A program made the translations under genes and the position numbers. This document shows positions 1 through 11,159 of a stretch of 27,584 nucleotides of DNA, one piece after another; position 1 is the first letter of the stretch; each line of letters begins with the position of its first letter. The notes beneath the pieces are model-generated. The model was given only the letters and a program-made list of their open reading frames with translations. It searched no databases and was not told the origin of the DNA. Origin of the DNA: a virus; the IMG/VR virus record IMGVR_UViG_3300009071_000048, positions 1 to 27,584 of that record. The stretch is one strand, 5' to 3'.

Positions 1-164
1 AATAAGTTCCCAAGTATTTATAATAGGGCTATAAGGCTTTAAAATAGGGCTTAATCAAGCTTTTACATTTTGTCATAAGCTAACATTAAAAAATGTTTTT
101 ATTGGCTTGTAGCTATCATTTAATAGGTTTATCGTCTGAACAATAAATAAATATATCTTTTATG
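1..164. other. Gene-free left edge with a reversed promoter half-site
   Basis: No plausible gene is seen. Positions 6-11 read GTTCCC, which is TGGGAAC-like on the minus strand; a matching -10 element would lie outside the window, so this is only a half-site of the early promoter family. AATAGGGCT occurs twice (about 21 and 43). AACATT-AAAA-AATGTT followed by T residues (about 83-102) is a weak AT-only hairpin that could terminate transcription. The stretch probably separates divergent transcripts, but this is inference. Confidence 0.35.
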
Positions 165-193
165 GGAACTAATTATTATATTGATAGTATATA
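165..193 (+). promoter_or_regulatory. Early promoter, family site 1
   Basis: GGAAC at 165-169, then 17 nt, then GTATATA at 187-193. This is the shared layout of ten intergenic sites in the left block. It lies about 110 nt upstream of the first gene, leaving room for a structured leader. Promoter function is inferred from position, repetition and the -10-like box. Confidence 0.65.
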
Positions 194-201
194 GTATTAA
201 G

Positions 202-283
202 TAAGCCAACAACATCTAAAACTAAAGTTAGTTGAGTTATTATTATTTTGGTTCGGCTTAGCCTTAGAGATAATATTTTAGAT
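202..283 (+). promoter_or_regulatory. Structured 5' leader with possible pseudoknot
   Basis: TAAGCCAAC (202-210) can pair with GTTcGGCTTA (251-260) with one bulged C. ATCTAAAA (214-221) pairs perfectly with TTTTAGAT (276-283). The two helices cross, giving an a-b-a'-b' (pseudoknot) order. A local GGC-TTA-GCC hairpin (255-263) would compete with the first helix. The element sits between promoter site 1 and the Shine-Dalgarno AAAAAGG of the first gene. A related TAAGCCAA/TTGGCTTA hairpin occurs in the leader at 6917-6944. Confidence 0.45.
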
Positions 284-303
284 ACTAACAAAAAGGAAAA
301 AAT

Positions 304-567
304 ATGTTACTAAGTAAACAAGATAAAAAAAGAATAAGTAAGAAAATAAAAGCTCTAAAAATAAAGAAAATCAAAACTATGCAGGGAAATTATATGAGTG
401 TAGAAAATGGATTAATAGTTAGAGTAAATGGAATAAAATTCCCAATGGTGAAAGGGGATAGATATTTAACAAGAGATAACACAAGAGCAGTTAAAATGGC
501 TATTAAAGAATACGAACAAAATATAAATATAAATAATCCTAAAGATTTTATAGGAGATTATTTATAA
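304..567 (+). CDS. Small basic early protein, unknown
   Basis: An 87-aa protein I do not recognise. The first 25 residues are very Lys-rich (RISKKIKALKIKKIK), followed by a short mixed beta-like segment (NGLIVRVNGIKFPMV) and an acidic C-terminus. The start is ATG with AAAAAGG about 8 nt upstream. It is the first gene after promoter site 1 and the structured leader at 202-283. The basic N-terminus could bind nucleic acid, which is a guess from composition only. The next gene is separated by a promoter and hairpin. Confidence 0.7.
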   Translation: MLLSKQDKKRISKKIKALKIKKIKTMQGNYMSVENGLIVRVNGIKFPMVKGDRYLTRDNTRAVKMAIKEYEQNININNPKDFIGDYL

Positions 568-579
568 GAGATAAAAAAA

Positions 580-606
580 CATGGGAACTTTTTATAGGTT
601 CCCATG
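580..606 (-). terminator. 9-bp inverted repeat with T-run on minus strand
   Basis: CATGGGAAC (580-588) and GTTCCCATG (598-606) are perfect inverted repeats with a 9-nt spacer. Read on the minus strand, the stem is followed by seven T residues (573-579), the form of an intrinsic terminator. The same bases hold the GGAAC box of promoter site 2, so one sequence may block leftward transcription and start rightward transcription. Confidence 0.5.
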
Positions 607-612
607 TTTAAA
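584..612 (+). promoter_or_regulatory. Early promoter, family site 2
   Basis: GGAAC at 584-588, 17 nt, then GTTTAAA at 606-612. The spacing equals that of the other nine sites, although the spacer here carries a reversed GGAAC copy. It starts transcription just ahead of the 64-aa gene at 644, which supports that gene's downstream start over the ATG at 581 inside the promoter. Confidence 0.55.
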
Positions 613-643
613 GAGTATGCAAACAAAACAAAGGACAAAACAA

Positions 644-838
644 ATGGAAAAAATACAAATAAGCAAATTAGAATATTTTGAATTTTTAAATAATATTCCA
701 ATAACGCAATTAAATAAGTATATGAAAATTGATAATAAAAATGATTTGAATTATTATATAAAAGATAATTATAAATATTGTATGAAAACTAATTTAAAAC
801 CATTATATAATATTTATTATAAAATAAAAATTAAATAA
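644..838 (+). CDS. Small Tyr/Asn/Lys-rich early protein, unknown
   Basis: A 64-aa protein beginning MEKIQISKLEYFEF. The start at 644 is preferred over an in-frame ATG at 581 because the latter lies inside a promoter hairpin, while 644 has AAAGGA 8-13 nt upstream. The C-terminus is Tyr-, Asn- and Lys-rich (NYYIKDNYKY; YNIYYKIKIK). No family is recognised. It lies alone between promoter sites 2 and 3. Confidence 0.6.
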   Translation: MEKIQISKLEYFEFLNNIPITQLNKYMKIDNKNDLNYYIKDNYKYCMKTNLKPLYNIYYKIKIK

Positions 839-841
839 ATG

Positions 842-870
842 GGAACTAAAAAGAATTAAGATAGTATAAA
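842..870 (+). promoter_or_regulatory. Early promoter, family site 3
   Basis: GGAAC at 842-846, 17 nt, GTATAAA at 864-870. It lies immediately after the stop codon of the previous gene and about 33 nt before the GTG start of the next. Confidence 0.65.
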
Positions 871-903
871 GAGTAAGAAAACAAAACAAAGGGAGTATAG
901 ATT

Positions 904-1212
904 GTGAGAGTTACAAAAGAACATTTAGAAAATCAGGTTTTAATGTTAAATGAGTTTACTGGACAACCAAAAGAACCATATTCTAAAAACGAAAATGGAG
1001 AATATAAAAGCAACATTGGGAATTATAATATTGGTTGGGCTTATGGTGGGTGCAAACTAGAACAGATAGTTAATGAGGGCGGTGGAGTTAGAGAAATAAC
1101 TTATCATAGACTTACAAAAAGAGAGCTATATTATGTTGTTCAGTCAATGAATAATATGCTAAGAAGTGAGTTAGATAAAAATGGGAAAAGATTATTATTA
1201 AAAGATATATAA
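904..1212 (+). CDS. Conserved phage protein of unknown function
   Basis: A 102-aa protein read from GTG at 904, with GGGAG 8-12 nt upstream. It has a central pattern, NIGNYNIGWAYGGCKLEQIV then NEGGGV, followed by a KREL-containing helix (residues about 85-100). From memory this layout recurs in short early proteins of many unrelated tailed phages that have no assigned function. It is followed 23 nt later by the 73-aa gene at 1236, so the pair is probably co-transcribed from promoter site 3. Confidence 0.75.
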   Translation: MRVTKEHLENQVLMLNEFTGQPKEPYSKNENGEYKSNIGNYNIGWAYGGCKLEQIVNEGGGVREITYHRLTKRELYYVVQSMNNMLRSELDKNGKRLLLKDI

Positions 1213-1235
1213 AATAACAAAGTGAGGGTTATGAA

Positions 1236-1457
1236 ATGAAAAAAGAATATAAAGAGTTAATTAAAAATCAAAAATCTTTAAACTTTTTAGAGGGTTTACC
1301 AATTTTTGATGATGAAAATAATATAACTGATAAAGGACAATATTTAATTAATAGTATATTTAATACTAAATATTTGATTAGAGATGTTTTTGAATTAGAT
1401 ACATTATTAGAGATAAAGTCACTATTAGATGAACAAATAAAGGAACTATTAGATTAA
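1236..1457 (+). CDS. Small helical early protein, unknown
   Basis: A 73-aa acidic protein that looks mostly helical, ending LLEIKSLLDEQIKELLD. An ATG at 1231 is followed at once by a stop in its frame, so ATG 1236 is the start; GAGGG lies about 8 nt upstream. No domain is recognised. It follows the gene at 904 without a promoter between them and is followed by promoter site 4. Confidence 0.65.
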   Translation: MKKEYKELIKNQKSLNFLEGLPIFDDENNITDKGQYLINSIFNTKYLIRDVFELDTLLEIKSLLDEQIKELLD

Positions 1458-1476
1458 AAGAAATATAAAATAATAG

Positions 1477-1505
1477 GGAACAAATATTAGTAAGAATAGT
1501 TAGAG
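1477..1505 (+). promoter_or_regulatory. Early promoter, family site 4
   Basis: GGAAC at 1477-1481, 17 nt, GTTAGAG at 1499-1505. The 33 nt at 1493-1525, covering the -10 box, the transcript start and the Shine-Dalgarno site, are identical to 2460-2492 of site 6. This is the clearest duplication of a complete expression cassette in the set. Confidence 0.65.
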
Positions 1506-1528
1506 TAATAGAAACAAAAGGAGAACAA

Positions 1529-1783
1529 ATGGACGAAAAAAGAAGAGAACAAATAGCAACAGCAATAAGTAACAGAGAGTTAAATTTAACTAAAAGTTAT
1601 GCGTATTGCATGTTTAGAAATACGCAACCAATGTTAGAGGATTGTTTAACAATATTAGAAGAGTGCGGAGATGTAGAAGATACCAAAGAATATCAGGGAG
1701 GCGAAGAAGAAAGAGCAATAGATAGAGTAGTAGAGATTGCTTGTGAAATTGCAGAAATGTATGGTGGTATGGAATATGAATAA
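1529..1783 (+). CDS. Small acidic early protein, unknown
   Basis: An 84-aa acidic protein with ATG start and AAAGGAG about 7 nt upstream. It begins MDEKRREQIATAISN and has three cysteines spread through the middle (CMF, DCL, ECG) and one near the end (IACEIAEM). The spacing does not match a standard zinc finger. I do not recognise a family. Its end overlaps the start of the next small gene by 8 nt, suggesting coupled translation from promoter site 4. Confidence 0.65.
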   Translation: MDEKRREQIATAISNRELNLTKSYAYCMFRNTQPMLEDCLTILEECGDVEDTKEYQGGEEERAIDRVVEIACEIAEMYGGMEYE

Positions 1784-1931
1784 GATGAACGAAACAAGAC
1801 AATATTTAAAACATTTCAGTCAGATAGTTGAAATGCAAATAGAAGATTATGAAAATGGTTCTAGTATAGACGAGGTAAATATAAATAAAATTATAGATAA
1901 ATTAAAATACCTTATTAGATATAGAAAATAA
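1776..1931 (+). CDS. Small helical early protein, unknown
   Basis: A 51-aa protein from ATG 1776, overlapping the previous gene's stop by 8 nt. A second in-frame ATG at 1785 is also possible. It is rich in charged helical segments (ETRQYLKHFSQIVEMQIEDY; INKIIDKLKYLIRY). There is no strong Shine-Dalgarno site, so expression probably depends on coupling to the 84-aa gene. No function is recognised. Confidence 0.5.
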   Translation: MNKMNETRQYLKHFSQIVEMQIEDYENGSSIDEVNINKIIDKLKYLIRYRK

Positions 1932-1934
1932 ATG

Positions 1935-1963
1935 GGAACTTTAATTAATTAGGATAGTATAAG
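1935..1963 (+). promoter_or_regulatory. Early promoter, family site 5
   Basis: GGAAC at 1935-1939, 17 nt, GTATAAG at 1957-1963. The GGAAC box starts two bases after the preceding stop codon region. This site and site 6 share TGGGAACTTTAATT and the downstream GTAATAGAAACAAAA. Confidence 0.7.
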
Positions 1964-1992
1964 TAATAGAAACAAAAACAATTGGAGATAAA

Positions 1993-2262
1993 ATGAAAGT
2001 AGTATCAGCAGTAAAATCAAGAGTTGGGGGTGTGAATGTTGGAATTACTAAAGATGATAAGGTAATTGCGTTCTATTCAAAAGATTATGATAATAAAGGT
2101 AATGTCAAAGGCAAGTATTTAGATATGCAATTTATTCATGGCGTAGGTGCATTTTATTTATCTTATTGTAATTATGATAAACAAACTTTAAATAAACTTG
2201 GATATTCTTCCAATGATTTAATTAAAGTAAATAATTTTCTTAACAATATGGAGGAAAAATGA
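1993..2262 (+). CDS. Small early protein, unknown
   Basis: An 89-aa protein with ATG start and TTGGAG 7 nt upstream. The N-terminal half is beta-rich and Gly/Val-rich (MKVVSAVKSRVGGVNVGITK, then KVIAFYSKDY). The C-terminal half is likely helical. No family is recognised. Its last four bases overlap the start of the next gene (ATGA), so the two are translationally coupled under promoter site 5. Confidence 0.65.
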   Translation: MKVVSAVKSRVGGVNVGITKDDKVIAFYSKDYDNKGNVKGKYLDMQFIHGVGAFYLSYCNYDKQTLNKLGYSSNDLIKVNNFLNNMEEK

Positions 2263-2441
2263 AAATAAATAAAATGATTGACGAATTAAAATTATTGCAA
2301 GATGAGTATGGCGATAAAGAAATAAGCCTAATAGAAATGGATGAACAAGAAGGTAATATTTATTATTACCTTGATGATGAGTGCATAACAGAGTATATGG
2401 ACTTGTCAGATGAGATAGCAATTTATATAAAATCAGAATAA
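2259..2441 (+). CDS. Small acidic early protein, unknown
   Basis: A 60-aa strongly acidic protein starting within an ATGA overlap with the preceding gene; GGAGG lies about 6 nt upstream. It begins with a helix (MKINKMIDELKLLQDEYGD) and continues with a short beta-like stretch (GNIYYYLDDECITEY). Phage proteins this acidic and this small are sometimes DNA mimics or inhibitors, but nothing here shows that. It is followed by promoter site 6. Confidence 0.6.
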   Translation: MKINKMIDELKLLQDEYGDKEISLIEMDEQEGNIYYYLDDECITEYMDLSDEIAIYIKSE

Positions 2442-2443
2442 TG

Positions 2444-2472
2444 GGAACTTTAATTGATTAGAATAGTTAGAG
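2444..2472 (+). promoter_or_regulatory. Early promoter, family site 6
   Basis: GGAAC at 2444-2448, 17 nt, GTTAGAG at 2466-2472. Positions 2460-2492 repeat 1493-1525 exactly over 33 nt. It drives the 148-aa gene at 2499, whose AAAGGAG lies within the repeat. Confidence 0.7.
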
Positions 2473-2498
2473 TAATAGAAACAAAAGGAGAATAGATA

Positions 2499-2945
2499 AT
2501 GGGATTAGACGCAAATGGTGGAAAATTAAATCATTTATACGAGTATGAATTTGAGAACCAAGAAGGAGAAAAAGTCAAACATAGTTATACAGGAGTAGGA
2601 CATTTTGAGTGGAGAAAACACGCAAGACTACAAGAGTTTATGACAAGATTATATATGAAAAGAAAGAGAATTAAAAACAAATGGTATGACAGAGGTGATG
2701 GGTGGTATCCAATAGAGTTTGGAGCATACAACAGAATAAGATTGAAAGAAGAAGATATAGACAAACTGGAAGAGGCAATTAAAACTGATTATGATGAATA
2801 TTTTTGTGATGGTGGGTTTTTATGGGGACACCAAAGGCAAGAGGATAGCATGAATTGGTATAGAGAGCAAGATTTAGAGTTTGTAGAGTATGCAAGACAG
2901 CGATTAAAAGACAACAAGACAGTTTATTATTCTTGTAGTTGGTAA
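2499..2945 (+). CDS. Conserved phage protein, MGLDA/YYSSW-type family
   Basis: A 148-aa protein with features I recognise from a widespread unnamed phage family: N-terminal MGLDA, an aromatic-WRKH block (FEWRKHARLQEFM, residues about 36-48), a central region ending in a GGF-aromatic-G motif (DGGFLWGH), an acidic helix (DLEFVEYARQRL) and the C-terminal tail VYYSCSW. The function is unknown. The start is ATG with AAAGGAG 11 nt upstream. It is the only gene between promoter sites 6 and 7. Confidence 0.75.
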   Translation: MGLDANGGKLNHLYEYEFENQEGEKVKHSYTGVGHFEWRKHARLQEFMTRLYMKRKRIKNKWYDRGDGWYPIEFGAYNRIRLKEEDIDKLEEAIKTDYDEYFCDGGFLWGHQRQEDSMNWYREQDLEFVEYARQRLKDNKTVYYSCSW

Positions 2946-2953
2946 AATAGTTG

Positions 2954-2982
2954 GGAACAAAAAAGAAAAACTATTGTTAAAG
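2954..2982 (+). promoter_or_regulatory. Early promoter, family site 7
   Basis: GGAAC at 2954-2958, 17 nt, GTTAAAG at 2976-2982. The predicted transcript would begin at about 2988-2990, only a few bases before the 14-bp helix of the RNA element at 2997-3111. Confidence 0.6.
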
Positions 2983-2996
2983 GTAGTATGAAACAA

Positions 2997-3111
2997 TTAA
3001 TAATGCATTGCGAGTATCTTGCATTGCCCTGACTAGTAGATAAAAAATATAGTATACTATATTCTACTTGCAGAGAGATATGGAGTAGAGTCAGGTTCAA
3101 TGCATTATTAA
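2997..3111 (+). ncRNA. Structured RNA / 5' UTR element closed by 14-bp helix
   Basis: The ends, TTAATAATGCATTG (2997-3010) and CAATGCATTATTAA (3098-3111), are perfect complements. Inside, CCTGACT (3028-3034) pairs with AGTCAGG (3089-3095). AGTAGA (3035-3040) pairs with TCTACT (3063-3068), capped by an 18-nt palindrome (3046-3063). A second AGTAGA (3084-3089) could pair with the same TCTACT, offering two exclusive folds. The element begins just after the predicted start of transcript from site 7 and ends 9 nt before the AAAGGAG of the gene at 3130. It may be a cis-regulatory RNA or a processed small RNA. It matches no class I know. Confidence 0.65.
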
Positions 3112-3129
3112 ATAACAAAAGGAGAACAA

Positions 3130-3315
3130 ATGAAAGCAAGAGAGTTAAAAGAGATATTAAAAGATGTGCCAGATAATAACCCTGTGAGTTTTTATATTAT
3201 TCACAATTTTACAAAAGATATCTATTTGGGCAATCCAGAAGTTATTTGCTCTAATGGAATTAATGATGAGGGTTGCGTTGACTTTGGATTTAAACCAACA
3301 ATGGAGAACAAATGA
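3130..3315 (+). CDS. Small early protein with MKxRELxExL start, unknown
   Basis: A 61-aa protein starting MKARELKEILKDVPDNNPVS, a start typical of short phage proteins in which a helix is followed by a short beta segment (FYIIHNF). AAAGGAG lies 6 nt upstream of the ATG. The last four bases overlap the next gene. Its leader is the RNA element at 2997-3111, so it is the best candidate for control by that structure. Function unknown. Confidence 0.65.
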   Translation: MKARELKEILKDVPDNNPVSFYIIHNFTKDIYLGNPEVICSNGINDEGCVDFGFKPTMENK

Positions 3316-3767
3316 AAGTATATAGAAAAAACCACAAGAACGAAGTTATGAAAGCAGGTAGATATTACATAGGAGATTTATGTTATATCTTAGATGAGAA
3401 AGATTGGGGAGAAGTTTGTGATTTAACATTTCCCTTTGATACTGACTATCACAAAGATGTAGCTAATGTAGAAATTGGCGGAAAGTTTACATTAAAAAAT
3501 GGAAAGATTATATCTTTGTATGGAACTGAACATGGAGATGGAACATACCATATAAAGAACATGAAAGATAACAACATAGGAAAACTTTATGTAGATAGCG
3601 GAACATTAGGTTGTGTTATGATACAAGATAAAAGTGAACTGCCTATGGGTAGTGGATTTAAGACGAAAACATTTAAAGAAGATTTTGAGTTGGACTATAC
3701 CAATAGCGGAGAGATTGTATTTAAGAATCTTGATGGGGATTGGATAGCATATATACCAACAATGTAA
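3312..3767 (+). CDS. Conserved GxYYIGDLCY-type protein, unknown
   Basis: A 151-aa protein with the signature AGRYYIGDLCYILDEKDW near the N-terminus (residues about 15-33), then a beta-rich body with GDGTYHI, YVDSGTLGCV and a C-terminal DWIAYIP. From memory, small beta-rich proteins with a [Y/Y]IGDPCY-like start occur in phages and in some bacteria without known function. The start overlaps the previous gene by 4 nt and has GGAG 6 nt upstream. The 3' end is followed at once by the structured gene-free region 3773-4476. Confidence 0.7.
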   Translation: MKVYRKNHKNEVMKAGRYYIGDLCYILDEKDWGEVCDLTFPFDTDYHKDVANVEIGGKFTLKNGKIISLYGTEHGDGTYHIKNMKDNNIGKLYVDSGTLGCVMIQDKSELPMGSGFKTKTFKEDFELDYTNSGEIVFKNLDGDWIAYIPTM

Positions 3768-3772
3768 GACTT

Positions 3773-3990
3773 GGGGGTGGTGGATATTGTCGCTACTCTT
3801 TGCGAGAGAGTATTTGTTAGGGTAGTAAGTAGTGAGAGAAAATGTTATATGTGCGTCTGCGGATGCTAATAAGAATATCTTACTAGTTATTGCATAGCAA
3901 TTATATTCAGAAACCCCCGCTAGATTTGAGGTTAGCATATAGAAGAGGTAAGCTATTAAATAATACCTGTGCTCTATTGGGACGACAACG
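3773..3990 (+). ncRNA. Candidate structured RNA A
   Basis: No plausible ORF. GGGGGT (3773-3778) pairs with ACCCCC (3913-3918). TTGTCG (3787-3792) pairs with CGACAA (3983-3988), and these two long helices cross. Local hairpins: TACTCT/AGAGTA (3794-3812), GCGTC/GATGC (3853-3866), GAATAT/ATATTC (3873-3908) enclosing ATTGC/GCAAT (3889-3901), and ATAGA/TCTAT with AGGTA/TACCT (3939-3977). A T7 run follows at 3992-3998. No early promoter lies directly upstream, so it may be part of the transcript of the 151-aa gene. No known RNA class is recognised. Confidence 0.5.
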
Positions 3991-4054
3991 CTTTTTTTAG
4001 CAAGACTCCGATAGTATCAAACGAGATTATAAACAAAGCCTCAAAAGATTTATG

Positions 4055-4083
4055 GGAACTTTATTTAATTAGGTTCGTATAAG
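4055..4083 (+). promoter_or_regulatory. Early promoter, family site 8
   Basis: GGAAC at 4055-4059, 17 nt, GTATAAG at 4077-4083. No coding start follows for more than 400 nt. The predicted transcript start (about 4089-4091) lies just ahead of the closing helix of structured RNA B. Confidence 0.7.
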
Positions 4084-4105
4084 TAGTATTAAAAGATATT
4101 TAAAA

Positions 4106-4476
4106 ATTGGAGATTATAAAAAACTATTCAAAGATAGTTTGAGTTGTAAATATGTTGAAGGGATAAGGCTTCTATAGATGCTATGGAATCCCAATAAACT
4201 TACATTAACGACCTGTACTGAAGTTTTACGAATCTTTGAAATTCGGTTAGATGATATAACGAAGGACTCACCAGAATTTTGGCTGAAAGAATGATGATTA
4301 TAATTAACTTCGGAGAGAAACCAAAGGAGTTATAGTTAGATTTTAAGTAGGTAATTCCATCGGCTACAAAAGCCACATTATAAGTTTTAGGACTGAGATG
4401 GATTAGCAATGTGAAGTTATTGAACGATTAAACAATTAGGCAAATAGGTAAGAACATTACAATAATAATCTCCAAT
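4106..4476 (+). ncRNA. Candidate structured RNA B, 371 nt
   Basis: Gene-free. The ends close on each other: ATTGGAGATTAT (4106-4117) with ATAATCTCCAAT (4465-4476), 12 bp perfect. Inside: AAACTAT/ATAGTTT (4121-4140); GGGAT/ATCCC (4160-4164, 4188-4192) stacked on TCTATAG/CTATGGA (4171-4187) with a 6-nt bulge; CGAAT/ATTCG (4229-4245); TAACTTC/GGAGTTA (4305-4332). AAT-CCATC (4353-4361)/GATGGATT (4397-4404) is crossed by CACATT (4374-4379)/AATGTG (4408-4413), an H-type pseudoknot holding a GGCT/AGCC hairpin. It has its own promoter (site 8) and ends just before site 9. It lacks a tRNA-like CCA end, so it is not an obvious tmRNA. Confidence 0.65.
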
Positions 4477-4485
4477 AAAAAGTTG

Positions 4486-4514
4486 GGAACTTTAATTAAC
4501 AAAAGGAGTATAAG
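4486..4514 (+). promoter_or_regulatory. Early promoter, family site 9, overlapping a Shine-Dalgarno site
   Basis: GGAAC at 4486-4490, 17 nt, GTATAAG at 4508-4514. Unusually, the spacer contains AAAAGGAG (4501-4508), the Shine-Dalgarno site of the gene at 4519. A transcript starting at about 4520 would lack it, so this promoter would give a nearly leaderless mRNA, while read-through RNA would use the SD. Confidence 0.55.
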
Positions 4515-4518
4515 TAGT

Positions 4519-4716
4519 ATGAATAACAAAAAAATAATACAGGCAATCAAAGAGTGGTTAGCAGATAATATAGTAACTGATGATGAAATCAGTGGTATAT
4601 CAGATGGGACACACGATATAGTGTATGGAAGAAAAGAGTTAGCAGTTTCTATGCTAGAAAAAATACATACATGGGAGAGATTTCCTGAAAACATAATAAC
4701 AAGAGAGGAAAGATGA
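4519..4716 (+). CDS. Small early protein, unknown
   Basis: A 65-aa protein from ATG 4519. An upstream in-frame TTG (4483) falls inside promoter site 9 and is rejected. It is acidic and helical (KKIIQAIKEWLADNIVTDDE; GRKELAVSMLEKIHTWERF). AAGGAG is 10 nt upstream but lies within the promoter. It overlaps the next gene by ATGA. No family is recognised. Confidence 0.6.
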   Translation: MNNKKIIQAIKEWLADNIVTDDEISGISDGTHDIVYGRKELAVSMLEKIHTWERFPENIITREER

Positions 4717-5075
4717 ATGAATACAAAGCAAACCCCAACATAGAAACAGGTGGGACATACAGGTTCGGAGAGGTGATGTTAAAACCAGTAGAACTATTGA
4801 TGGTGTTTGGTAAGCCACACGTTATGGATAGTTACAAGGTATCAGGTGAGTATCTGTTTGAACACAGAGAAACAGGAACACCAGTAACTTTATATGATTG
4901 GAAGTATACTACTCTGTATGAATCAGATGGTATTGAACCAGTAGATTTTTGGAAGTTAGATGAGGAGGTTCAGTTCAATATAGGTTCAAACAATAGTTAT
5001 TCTTTTGGATTTGATGAATGGATAAAATCTTTTATTAAAGATGAGTTAAATAAAATAAACAAAGGAGAAAGATAA
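4713..5075 (+). CDS. Conserved phage protein with YDWKxTxLY motif, unknown
   Basis: A 120-aa protein with a pattern I recognise from other phage early regions: a short FGKPH segment (residues about 32-36), SGEYLFEHRETGTPVTLYDW then KYTTLYE (about 44-70), a Pro-x-x-FW element (PVDFWKL) and a C-terminal IGSNN-F-x-x-WI region. The function of such proteins is unknown. The start is inside an ATGA overlap with GAGAGGAAAG upstream. The stop shares a base with the next start codon (TAATG). Confidence 0.7.
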   Translation: MNEYKANPNIETGGTYRFGEVMLKPVELLMVFGKPHVMDSYKVSGEYLFEHRETGTPVTLYDWKYTTLYESDGIEPVDFWKLDEEVQFNIGSNNSYSFGFDEWIKSFIKDELNKINKGER

Positions 5076-5320
5076 TGGGTAAGATGAGTGAGTTAGATAG
5101 ACAGATGCGTGAAGTGGAGGAAGTAATGAACAATGAAAACCAAATAACAATACCAGTCTATTACACAATAGATGATGAGACAGGTATCAGACACTACGAT
5201 ACAGATAGTATGCGTGATGAGTTTGATAAAGAAATCAAACAACTAGAAGACAACACACAAGCAGAGGTTGATGGATGGAATGAGAAACAACAAGACTATG
5301 CTATGGATAGCATGGCATAA
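5075..5320 (+). CDS. Small acidic early protein, unknown
   Basis: An 81-aa acidic protein with TAATG coupling to the gene before and AAAGGAG about 7 nt upstream. It opens with a charged helix (MGKMSELDRQMREVEEVM), has a short beta segment (ITIPVYYTIDDETG) and ends with a Gln/Asp-rich helix. No domain is recognised. It is followed four bases later by a short zinc-binding-like gene. Confidence 0.65.
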   Translation: MGKMSELDRQMREVEEVMNNENQITIPVYYTIDDETGIRHYDTDSMRDEFDKEIKQLEDNTQAEVDGWNEKQQDYAMDSMA

Positions 5321-5323
5321 TTA

Positions 5324-5485
5324 ATGTCAAATGACAAGTTATACAGGTGTATATCCTGTAAACAAGCAATGCTAAAACATGAGAAACATAATATAAACAA
5401 AAAAAGTTATTGTTTTGGATGTTGGTTAGCTACAATAGAAACGAAAGAAAGAGAGAAAGATAGTGAGAGATTACACAACAGATAG
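5324..5485 (+). CDS. Small CxxC...CxxC zinc-ribbon-like protein
   Basis: A 53-aa protein. Two CxxC pairs, YRCISC (residues 8-12) and YCFGCW (30-34), separated by a basic, His-containing linker, form a compact zinc-ribbon-like unit. The C-terminal part is a charged helix (TKEREKDSER). The ATG is three bases after the previous stop; it lacks a strong SD, so coupling is likely. It overlaps the start of the next gene by 23 nt in another frame. The metal-binding role is inferred from the cysteine pattern alone. Confidence 0.6.
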   Translation: MSNDKLYRCISCKQAMLKHEKHNINKKSYCFGCWLATIETKEREKDSERLHNR

Positions 5486-5801
5486 TATTGAATCAAAATA
5501 TAGAGCAGACATAGAAAAGCTTGGGACTTATTCAGTGATTATACCATTGGATAGAACAGACATAGGATGTTATGTAGAGGGGTTTGATGACATGGATAGA
5601 AAAGATAGTGATGAACTTTGTAGAGAGGTTATTAATGTATTAGAGTTTGAGATATTAGTAATGAACAATACAACCGAAGACAATACAAACAATAAGTTTA
5701 TGACTTTGGTAAAGAATTGCACACAAAAAATATGTAGAATGAACAACTTAACATTCATAGATAAGGATAAGTTATTCTTATTAGGAGAGGCAAGTGCTTG
5801 A
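5463..5801 (+). CDS. Small early protein, unknown
   Basis: A 112-aa protein read from GTG 5463, with GAGAGAAAG upstream. It is mixed alpha/beta (TYSVIIPLDRTDIGCYVEGF near residues 22-42) and acidic in the middle (FDDMDRKDSDELCREVINVL). It overlaps the zinc-ribbon gene by 23 nt and the nuclease gene by 8 nt, so it belongs to a tight operon leading into the recombination genes. No family is recognised. Confidence 0.6.
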   Translation: MRDYTTDSIESKYRADIEKLGTYSVIIPLDRTDIGCYVEGFDDMDRKDSDELCREVINVLEFEILVMNNTTEDNTNNKFMTLVKNCTQKICRMNNLTFIDKDKLFLLGEASA

Positions 5802-6528
5802 TGTAAAAGAAATATATGCAGGATACTTAAAGAAACTAAATGAGGATAATCGTATCAACAGATACGAAGACAGGGAACATTGGTTCCATGCCTCATCTAG
5901 TGGAATGTGTATGCGTAAGATATATTACAATAGTGTAGAGAAAGTAGAAAGCACAGAGATAGATGAGAATACATTGAGGCTATTTAGACTTGGTGATTTG
6001 GTTCATGGGGATATACAGGATGCTTTAACTCTACATGGAGAGAAAGAAAAAGTAGATGTATTGATTGAAGAAGAGATACAGATACAAGACATAAATGTCA
6101 GAGGCTTCTTTGATATATGTATAGTTGATGATGATGCAATGTATGATATAAAAACGTGCAATAGTTTTAAGTGGAGGAACTTGTTTGGTAGAACACCTGA
6201 CCCTGAACCTGCGGAGAATTATGCGTTGCAGCTAGGCACCTATGCATACTGGTATCAACAGAAGTATGATGTTGAATTACAGAAGTTGGCATTGATTTAT
6301 TATAACAAAGACAACTCTTTAATGAGGGAAGTCAATGTCCCTAAGTCCTTTATTAATAAGGCTTACAGGTATTGGCAAGATGTGAATGAACGATTTAAAA
6401 TTGGGATACCAGAGGTATCACTAGGCACCGCACCAGTATATGAGTGGGAGTGCAATGTTAAATATTGTGGCTACTTCAACCACTGCGGAGGTGGATTGAA
6501 GGGTCAGAGTAAATGGAGTAAACGATAA
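5794..6528 (+). CDS. PD-(D/E)XK nuclease, Cas4/RecB-like with Fe-S cysteines
   Basis: A 244-aa protein from GTG 5794 with AGGAGAG close upstream. It carries the order of RecB/Cas4-type exonuclease motifs: H71 in LGDLVHGDI, GFFD107 in the GhhD position, D118-I-K120 as the D-x-K pair and Q146 in YALQLGTYAYW. C39 (SGMCMRK) with C220, C225 and C231 at the end (WECNVKYCGYFNHC) is the four-cysteine pattern that binds a 4Fe-4S cluster in Cas4 and AddB-like nucleases. A role in end resection ahead of the ERF annealing protein is likely. There is no CRISPR array or other cas gene, so this is a stand-alone phage nuclease. Confidence 0.85.
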   Translation: MLDVKEIYAGYLKKLNEDNRINRYEDREHWFHASSSGMCMRKIYYNSVEKVESTEIDENTLRLFRLGDLVHGDIQDALTLHGEKEKVDVLIEEEIQIQDINVRGFFDICIVDDDAMYDIKTCNSFKWRNLFGRTPDPEPAENYALQLGTYAYWYQQKYDVELQKLALIYYNKDNSLMREVNVPKSFINKAYRYWQDVNERFKIGIPEVSLGTAPVYEWECNVKYCGYFNHCGGGLKGQSKWSKR

Positions 6529-6543
6529 AAAAAAGGAGTAATA

Positions 6544-6873
6544 ATGGCTAAGACATATGCAACAGGAAGAAAGAAACACGCAGAAGGACCAAAGAGAAAG
6601 ACCTATGCAACAGGTAGAAAGAAACATTCTAACATACCTACCTTAAAGACAGGTAGAGCTAGAATAACTTCAACTAATGGTAGACCGAGCAAAACTTTAT
6701 ATGTGTTAAAACATTTAGAGGAGCATGGGAGTATCACTAGTTGGGATGCTATACAATTATATAGTGCAACTAGATTGTCAGGTATCATCTTTACCTTAAA
6801 AGAACAGGGGTATGTGATTGAAACTACTGGCGGTGCAGGTAGAAACTTTGCTACATATCATTTAAGAAGTTAA
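6544..6873 (+). CDS. HTH_39-like DNA-binding protein with duplicated basic N-terminus
   Basis: A 109-aa protein. Residues about 48-93 match the phage helix-turn-helix pattern LKHLEEHGSITSWDAIQLY, TRLSGIIFTLKEQGY, as in HTH_39 (small phage regulators or excision-like proteins). Before it lie two copies of KTYATGRKKH (residues 3-12 and 19-28), a recent in-frame duplication of a basic segment that could grip DNA. The start is ATG with AAAAGGAG 7 nt upstream. It sits right after the nuclease and just before promoter site 10, the last early promoter, so it is a candidate regulator of that family. Confidence 0.75.
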   Translation: MAKTYATGRKKHAEGPKRKTYATGRKKHSNIPTLKTGRARITSTNGRPSKTLYVLKHLEEHGSITSWDAIQLYSATRLSGIIFTLKEQGYVIETTGGAGRNFATYHLRS

Positions 6874-6882
6874 AAATAGTTG

Positions 6883-6911
6883 GGAACTTTTTAAAGTTAG
6901 TGTCGTATAAG
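6883..6911 (+). promoter_or_regulatory. Early promoter, family site 10
   Basis: GGAAC at 6883-6887, 17 nt, GTATAAG at 6905-6911. It is the rightmost copy, 2 kb beyond site 9, and is placed to drive the replication/recombination operon from 6964 to about 10.6 kb. Confidence 0.7.
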
Positions 6912-6916
6912 TGTTG

Positions 6917-6944
6917 TAAGCCAAAGCAATGGTGCCTTGGCTTA
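6917..6944 (+). promoter_or_regulatory. Leader hairpin after promoter site 10
   Basis: TAAGCCAAaGC (6917-6927) pairs with GCcTTGGCTTA (6934-6944), one mismatch, 6-nt loop. The predicted transcript start is in or just before its 5' arm. TAAGCCAA and GGCTTA also form the main helix of the first leader (202-260), so the two leaders share a motif. The SD AAAAAGGAAAA follows 7 nt later. Confidence 0.5.
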
Positions 6945-6963
6945 AACCAAAAAGGAAAACATA

Positions 6964-7098
6964 ATGGTTGAAGTAAATAAAATAATAAATACTATAATAG
7001 ATAGATTAAAAGTAATTGATAAATATGAATCTGATAAAATAATATCAGAGAAAGATTTTCTATTACAAATGTTAAGGAGTTTAGATGAAACAAACTGA
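6964..7098 (+). CDS. Small helical early protein, unknown
   Basis: A 44-aa protein starting MVEVNKIINTIIDRLKVIDK, helical and amphipathic, with AAAAAGG about 10 nt upstream. It is the first gene after promoter site 10 and its hairpin, and overlaps the next gene by 14 nt. It resembles the first gene's setting (304) in leader structure but not in sequence. No function is recognised. Confidence 0.55.
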   Translation: MVEVNKIINTIIDRLKVIDKYESDKIISEKDFLLQMLRSLDETN

Positions 7099-10901: not shown

Positions 10902-11159
10902 ATGGCTAAATCACATCCAACGTATAATGTAGAACACATTAAGTGGGGACAAAAACCAAAGCTTACACCAGAAGAAAGAGTGAAGCAGATAAAAGCATTA
11001 GACCCATACAGTAAAGAAGGACAAGAGCTGCAAGAATATCATGCTAAAAAAAATGGTAGAGGTTGGCACATATTTCAAGGAGTTACTCTTAGAGCTAACA
11101 GAAAAGAAAAGACTTGGATAGAACAATTTTACGTAGAAAGAATTAAGGAGAAAAAATAA
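10902..11159 (+). CDS. Small basic protein, unknown
   Basis: An 85-aa protein beginning MAKSHPTYNVEHIKWGQKPK and ending in a Lys-rich helix (ERIKEKK). It includes KLTPEERVKQIKALDP and a central GRGWHIFQGV. I do not recognise the family. The start is ATG with AAGGAG 6 nt upstream. The structured leader at 10771-10880 suggests post-transcriptional control. The next gene starts 3 nt after the stop. Confidence 0.65.
   Translation: MAKSHPTYNVEHIKWGQKPKLTPEERVKQIKALDPYSKEGQELQEYHAKKNGRGWHIFQGVTLRANRKEKTWIEQFYVERIKEKK

Follow-up and report, generated by a model that had tools for sequence, protein, structure and literature searches.

GOLLD and ROOL are large branched orphan RNAs of phages and prophages, dispensable where tested and endowed with long-range loop contacts, with ROOL env-120 measuring 659 nt and many GOLLDs more than 800 nt (PMC12286853). 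Orphan, abundant noncoding RNAs (ncRNAs) were also detected by RNA-seq in phage ICP1 and the PLE satellites, the PLE one lying between inverted repeats (PMC7567579), and Racr is a phage-borne RNA anti-CRISPR that mimics CRISPR repeats (PMC10651486). Phage morons are units with their own promoter and terminator, variably present and inserted between conserved genes.

The DNA analysed here is a virus record of 27,584 bases with a GC content of 33% (the window), and the element under study occupies positions 4106-4476 (region B; the homologous RNAs are named B versions). Similarly to GOLLD and ROOL, B is a branched orphan phage RNA with a probable long-range loop contact, but it is only about 370 nt long, has no covariance match to them (at the gathering cut-off or at E up to 10) and fails both the length criterion of above about 500 nt and the frequent location near tRNA genes. 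Moreover, it swaps its core and variable arm between versions and is carried in a moron-type promoter/terminator cassette. Its complementary loops would permit a homo-oligomeric cage of the GOLLD/ROOL type, oligomerisation itself being hypothetical. Like the ICP1 and PLE ncRNAs, B is a gene-free phage RNA whose role is unknown, although it was detected by genome comparison and theirs by RNA-seq. The likeness to Racr, as a noncoding phage RNA directed against host immunity, is for B merely proposed; CRISPR-repeat mimicry in particular has no support so far, none of the CRISPR repeat families of Rfam matching region B even at E up to 10, although the arrays of the host are unknown. As in morons, promoter and terminator are both recognised by sequence in one relative (L036), whereas in the window only the promoter was found, and B comes and goes at one constant site among the window's relatives (the slot of the second lineage being variable among relatives by large terminase, TerL). 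The difference from morons is that the cargo of the cassette is RNA rather than a protein gene.

Region B, its reading frames and its homologues

A preliminary description, made from sequence alone, had presented 4106-4476 as a gene-free stretch of 371 nt without coding frame, and this held in both the ORF list and the homologue comparison. On the + strand, which is the coding strand, no ORF of at least 60 aa was found from 3768 to the gene start at 4483/4516, and only two ORFs of this size overlap the region, both antisense (4200-4409, with a TTG start, and 4428-4694). Since the overlapping ORFs are antisense only and the homologues of region B carry single-base indels, there is no credible frame in it; a conserved protein frame on either strand, which would have refuted the RNA according to that description, does not survive among the homologues. 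The perfect 12-bp end-to-end helix (4106-4117/4465-4476) also held, being part of the minimum free energy (MFE) fold of the + strand (-77.3 kcal/mol, z -2.39). The opposite strand gave a close value (z -2.66), as expected for an inverted-repeat region. Any perfect 12-bp inverted repeat appeared in 22 of 2000 dinucleotide shuffles of the region (~1%), and two 12-bp inverted repeats with arms 200-500 apart were present in the left arm of the window, against 0.45 expected. By itself the helix is thus only moderately unusual, and the evidence from the single sequence is suggestive but falls short of proof.

About ten sister phages were reached through the window proteins and further contigs through conserved B motifs, yielding six distinct versions of B in IMG/VR contigs of two phage lineages. 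A type 1 core is found in the window (4106-4476, + strand), L034 (4440-4809, minus strand) and L035, which is the same as L083, and a type 2 core in L002 (2284-2615), L014 (8761-9093) and L036, which is the same as L060 and nearly identical to L037. L034, L083 and L036 represent the second lineage, whose TerL matches Terminase_6 and Terminase_3 and adjoins a DUF5681 small terminase. The ends are common to all versions, whereas the cores split into the two types, and a 5' A/U-rich box, helices P1, P1a, P2 and P3 and the long hairpin P5 are present in every version. The structural evidence rests on these six distinct sequences, many of the changes being single events common by descent; the contigs are fragments, and presence or absence in incomplete ones was scored only where both flanks were present.

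No match to Rfam 15 was obtained at the gathering cut-off for the window or the homologue loci, and at E up to 10 region B gave only weak chance matches to eukaryotic RNAs. The exclusion of tmRNA, RNase P and self-splicing introns in the preliminary description also held, as Rfam covariance models and ARAGORN gave no match; no tRNA gene was detected in the window and 15 loci, and tmRNA was not found. Of the checks that it had proposed, the Rfam search of the region matched no family and the alignment of homologues revealed compensating changes in P1, the P2 arms and P5. Comparison of the window DNA with named phages, near and distant, and of the L036 version with phages and plasmids returned no B match, the sole DNA match outside the relatives being 57 nt of the promoter region within an Arcobacter plasmid gene. 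Two gut MAG matches from the genome-contig pattern search and the candidates L140 and L141 were rejected as chance, and weak profile matches in L028-L030 and several pattern loci as chance or coding.

Helices, covariation and loop contacts

Helix P1, formed by 4106-4117 and 4465-4476, shows two-sided changes among the homologues at three pairs (A-U to U-A, G-C to A-U and U-A to C-G), two of which appeared in a second count that omitted the outermost pair. One further pair changed from A-U to G-U, which supports an RNA because G-U is tolerated only by the + strand RNA. L034 has lost the two outer pairs, and the compensated changes are common to L035, L036 and L037, each of them having perhaps arisen only once.

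In helix P2 the 5' arm (UUGUAA..UGUU, 4144-4156) pairs with AACAUUACAA at 4453-4462. UUGUAA plus UGUU pairs with AACA plus UUACAA in the window and L014, and UUGaUAGgGUU pairs with AACgCUAaCAA in L002 and L036, both arms being altered together, such that the sister phages L014 and L002 differ jointly on both sides; L034 has a single A-C mismatch. P2 is followed by a variable arm (4157-4192) whose hairpin content varies among homologues, with one hairpin in the window, other hairpins in L002 and L014 and three in L036. The composite hairpin noted there previously (GGGAT/ATCCC plus TCTATAG/CTATGGA, at 4160-4192) held only in part: it exists in the window, but conservation in the homologues does not extend to the inner part. 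Helix P3 joins CUUAC (4199-4203), within the invariant AATAAACTTACATTAACG, to GUAAG (4448-4452), and since both arms are invariant in the homologues it offers no covariation signal either way.

Hairpin P5 (4295-4338) covaries strongly. Its 17 pairs are formed in 90.2% of the alignment cells, against 36-48% when the helix is slid. Two-sided changes were observed at five pairs (13 such cells versus 6.3 in shuffles), and the covariation score was 0.510 versus 0.312 in shuffles (0 of 500 shuffles). The counts of two-sided pairs and of pair types were not above those of shuffles (144/500 and 243/500). The apical loop, GGAGNGAAACY, is near-invariant among the B homologues, and in the loci searched it was found outside 70-aa ORFs only in these, in the stretch of L007 referred to below as RNA E and, less strictly matched, in the L126 unit named RNA G. 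A search of 734 kb with a P5 model returned no significant members other than the B homologues.

An H-type pseudoknot had been proposed at 4353-4413, and this claim failed, since its helices nest without crossing: CCATC (4357-4361) and GATGG (4397-4401) enclose GGC (4362-4364) and GCC (4372-4374). These nested CCAUC/GAUGG and GGC/GCC pairs belong to type 1 only, CCAUC/GAUGG being invariant in the window, L034 and L035, and the MFE fold likewise has nested pairs only there. A different contact, missed by the earlier reader, was found between hairpins P1a (AAACTAT-TCAAAG-ATAGTTT, 4121-4140) and P4 (CGAAU-CUUUGAA-AUUCG, 4229-4245), as the P1a loop UUCAAAG (4127-4133) and the P4 loop CUUUGAA (4234-4240) are fully complementary. 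The P1a stem is invariant except for one G-U. In type 2 homologues, P4 reads CUGAA-CUUUGUAAA-UUCAG, the P1a loop is UACAAAG and its partner CUUUGUA is again a hairpin loop, so that the 7-nt complementarity is kept in 6/6 versions. In shuffled sequences such a 7-mer match arose by chance with a frequency of 4.9% for one type and 2.3% for the other. The P1a-P4 loop-loop pseudoknot is therefore likely on sequence comparison, with good but not overwhelming support, because the two types count as a single coupled change; the contact could be made within one molecule or between two.

Promoters, cassette gain and loss, and transfer between lineages

The RNA unit is preceded by the promoter-like sequence GGGAAC-N18-TATAAG (4054-4083, + strand), which is one of nine GGGAAC-N18-TATA/TTA-type sites in window positions 1-7000, all on the + strand with a constant 18-nt spacing and a slightly variable second box. 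The own promoter within a promoter series claimed previously thus held at the sequence level, the sites at 4054 and 4485 (4485-4514, + strand) bracketing the region. No sigma factor was identified for the GGGAAC-type sites. The window unit has no recognisable terminator, so read-through into 4516-4713 is possible. Ahead of P1 lies the conserved 5' A/U-rich box, AAAAGATATTTAAAA(ATT) (4091-4105), which may be an RNase E-type processing site; every B homologue, in either lineage, has it, it also stands before other ORF-less RNAs, in L007 and L126, and a looser form precedes the ORF-less block C (RNA C) in L036 and L083.

The flanks of B in the window have near-identical counterparts in the related contig L006, from which precisely one promoter copy and B itself are missing. 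The L006 junction lies within GGGAACTTTA, where the 4054 promoter is fused to the 4485 promoter, the second recombining repeat of the cassette, indicating that B was lost or gained through promoter-repeat recombination. B is absent from L006 and L007 and present in the window, L002 and L014. In L014 it directly follows element A (see below) with no promoter between, and hence an own promoter is not universal.

In the second lineage (L036 and L083) two TTGACA-17 promoters stand upstream of B (matching 11/12 and 10/12 in L036), the B promoter being TTGACA-17-TATACT, and B is followed by the A/U box, block C and an intrinsic terminator, CCCCCTGAAATATGGGGG-TTTTTT; in L036 promoters and terminator flank the RNA with no gene between. 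This unit sits between a sigma-70 region-4-like regulator and terS, in a slot that ranges from 194 to 3300 bases and differs in content across some 50 relatives (L059-L138). Most of the 33 slot proteins scanned had no Pfam family match, the remaining contents including DNA methyltransferases, ParB-like proteins and PAPS reductase, besides about 30 singleton small ORFs.

As a separate observation, the slot cargo units of L059-L138 have similar TTGACA promoters and mostly encode singleton small proteins of no known family, which could possibly be accessory or anti-defence genes.

Between the lineages, the window B shows 90-91% identity with that of L034 along about 385 nt and 89% with that of L083, and L036 and L014 share 94.6% identity across 258 nt of core. 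Other DNA common to both lineages is limited to a few short matches of 68-92% identity and at most about 200 nt. The exonuclease and Erf of L002 are 97-99% identical to those of the window, yet its B has a type 2 core. As B is closely similar across lineages and the core differs in the sister L002, neither the movement of B nor the exchange of its core has followed the genomes that carry it; B is mobile between genomes. Apart from B, the longest match between the lineages lies in a small gene at 10902-11159 (85 aa, about 47-64% protein identity), a sign of gene exchange between them.

Proposed role, rival explanations and other RNA-like units

The homologues support the central claim of the preliminary description, a discrete structured ncRNA of no named class with its own promoter, which was wrong or incomplete on two points: the pseudoknot sits elsewhere, and the RNA is a mobile cassette and no fixed part of the phage. 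That 4106-4476 encodes a real folded ncRNA gene is well supported by computation, in the absence of expression data, and the same computation shows a conserved covarying RNA, a promoter at the sequence level, mobility and an accessory slot. We regard B as a new family within a known kind, the orphan structured phage RNA, and what is unusual is its cassette and core-swapping biology.

Regarding function, we lean, without great confidence, towards a new family of trans-acting accessory (moron-type) RNAs serving as decoy or inhibitor of a host factor in take-over or counter-defence. The host polymerase would transcribe, from a phage promoter belonging to the unit itself, an RNA of ~385 nt (about 4091-4476), putatively trimmed at its 5' end at the AUUU/A-U box, which would fold through closure by P1, with P1a, P2, P3, P4, P5 and the P1a-P4 loop contact. 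A fixed surface would be formed by the two kissing loops together with the P5 loop GGAGNGAAACY, the variable arm and core differing by version, and through this loop and the kissing-loop core the RNA may bind a host factor in trans, the binding partner being inferred. Host take-over or counter-defence would be its most likely role. The cassette is gained, lost and exchanged through recombination, in the window lineage via the repeated promoter, and occurs in two or more phage lineages, which probably encounter each other in common hosts. The counter-defence reading derives from the company B keeps in the second-lineage slot; no target has been found and the host is unknown. Core variation and slot neighbours may fit counter-defence or take-over, without proving either.

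The main rival, which remains possible, is an RNA-only scaffold or cage like GOLLD and ROOL, in which many copies would assemble via contacts between their loops and, at a late stage of infection, hold cargo. B is phage-borne, multi-branched and orphan, and its complementary, co-varying loops could pair between molecules; GOLLD and ROOL prove that such RNAs exist in phages (PMC12286853), and the most abundant transcript of ICP1 is an orphan ncRNA of ~800 nt (PMC7567579). Against it, B is shorter, has no Rfam match to either family and lies in loci without tRNA, and the P1a-P4 contact fits intramolecular pairing equally well. A role as phage packaging RNA was rejected, as most TerL relatives lack B and the window lineage carries it elsewhere.

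It is unlikely that B acts in cis, as a leader or attenuator of the gene that follows. The RNA of the window does precede a gene on the same strand, from which no clear terminator divides it, but the fresh promoter copy at 4485-4514 separates the two, L006 keeps the same gene without the RNA, and the second lineage has different downstream genes and an intervening intrinsic terminator. Still less plausible is a MITE-type mobile DNA element, in which the 12-bp terminal inverted repeat would be a transposase site and the RNA fold a by-product. The inverted termini, the precise presence and absence and the transfer between lineages would agree with it, and such an origin has been suggested for the phage-satellite RNA between inverted repeats (PMC7567579). 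However, the junction in L006 maps to the promoter repeat, away from the termini, there is one copy per genome and no clear target duplication, and the internal covariation of P5 and P2 and the G-U pairs make no sense in a DNA element.

Other RNA-like units were observed in these genomes. Element A (window 3768-3924) is a conserved gene-free block right after the CDS 3312-3767, closed by GGGGG/CCCCC and containing a hairpin, UACUCUUUGCGAGAGAGUA/CACUCUUUGCGAAAGAGUG, with a compensating change; about nine sister contigs carry it, some together with B and some not, and it has no match in Rfam. L007 8050-8745, in the same slot, holds a short RNA D (AUAACUUGGGUG...CACCCGAGUUAU), an A/U box and then an ORF-less RNA E of ~600 nt. 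The highly structured stretch of L007 (MFE -177 kcal/mol over 630 nt, with a 13-bp hairpin capped by GGAGUGAAACC) is absent from all other contigs searched, and RNA E as a B homologue by virtue of this B-type loop is unsupported (P5 model 10 bits, E 0.28). RNA G (L126 4799-5060) combines a box, a terminal helix, UGGAUAUUAAAAA/UUUUUUAAUAUCCA, and a terminator, sharing with B its 5' end and the spacing to ACAAAG, the rest being different. RNA C (L036 3085-3312, and L083) is conserved between the two phages and lies behind a second A/U box, with B upstream and the terminator downstream, and L011 5840-6080 is an ORF-less structured stretch behind AAAAAAGATATTTGAAAT and ahead of a GGGAAC promoter.

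A bolder reading, which we consider on balance doubtful, is that these phages possess "RNA cargo slots" filled with arrays of structured RNAs that are exchangeable and unrelated to one another, where each RNA would lie behind a similar A/U box acting as processing site and be cut from one precursor. The leads are the arrangements B-box-C (L036 and L083), D-box-~600-nt E (L007), box-G-terminator (L126) and A-box-B (L014). If true, RNA cargo slots would be the RNA counterpart of protein-coding anti-defence islands.

As for B itself, read as a mobile accessory RNA, gene-free stretches of phage accessory loci are easily overlooked while these loci are mined for anti-defence proteins, and a conserved RNA with covariation, travelling from one phage lineage to another as a transcription unit in its own right, means that noncoding RNA is also phage cargo. 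It also provides a defined family to work on, whose conserved loop and loop-loop pairing are a simple handle in the search for its partner.
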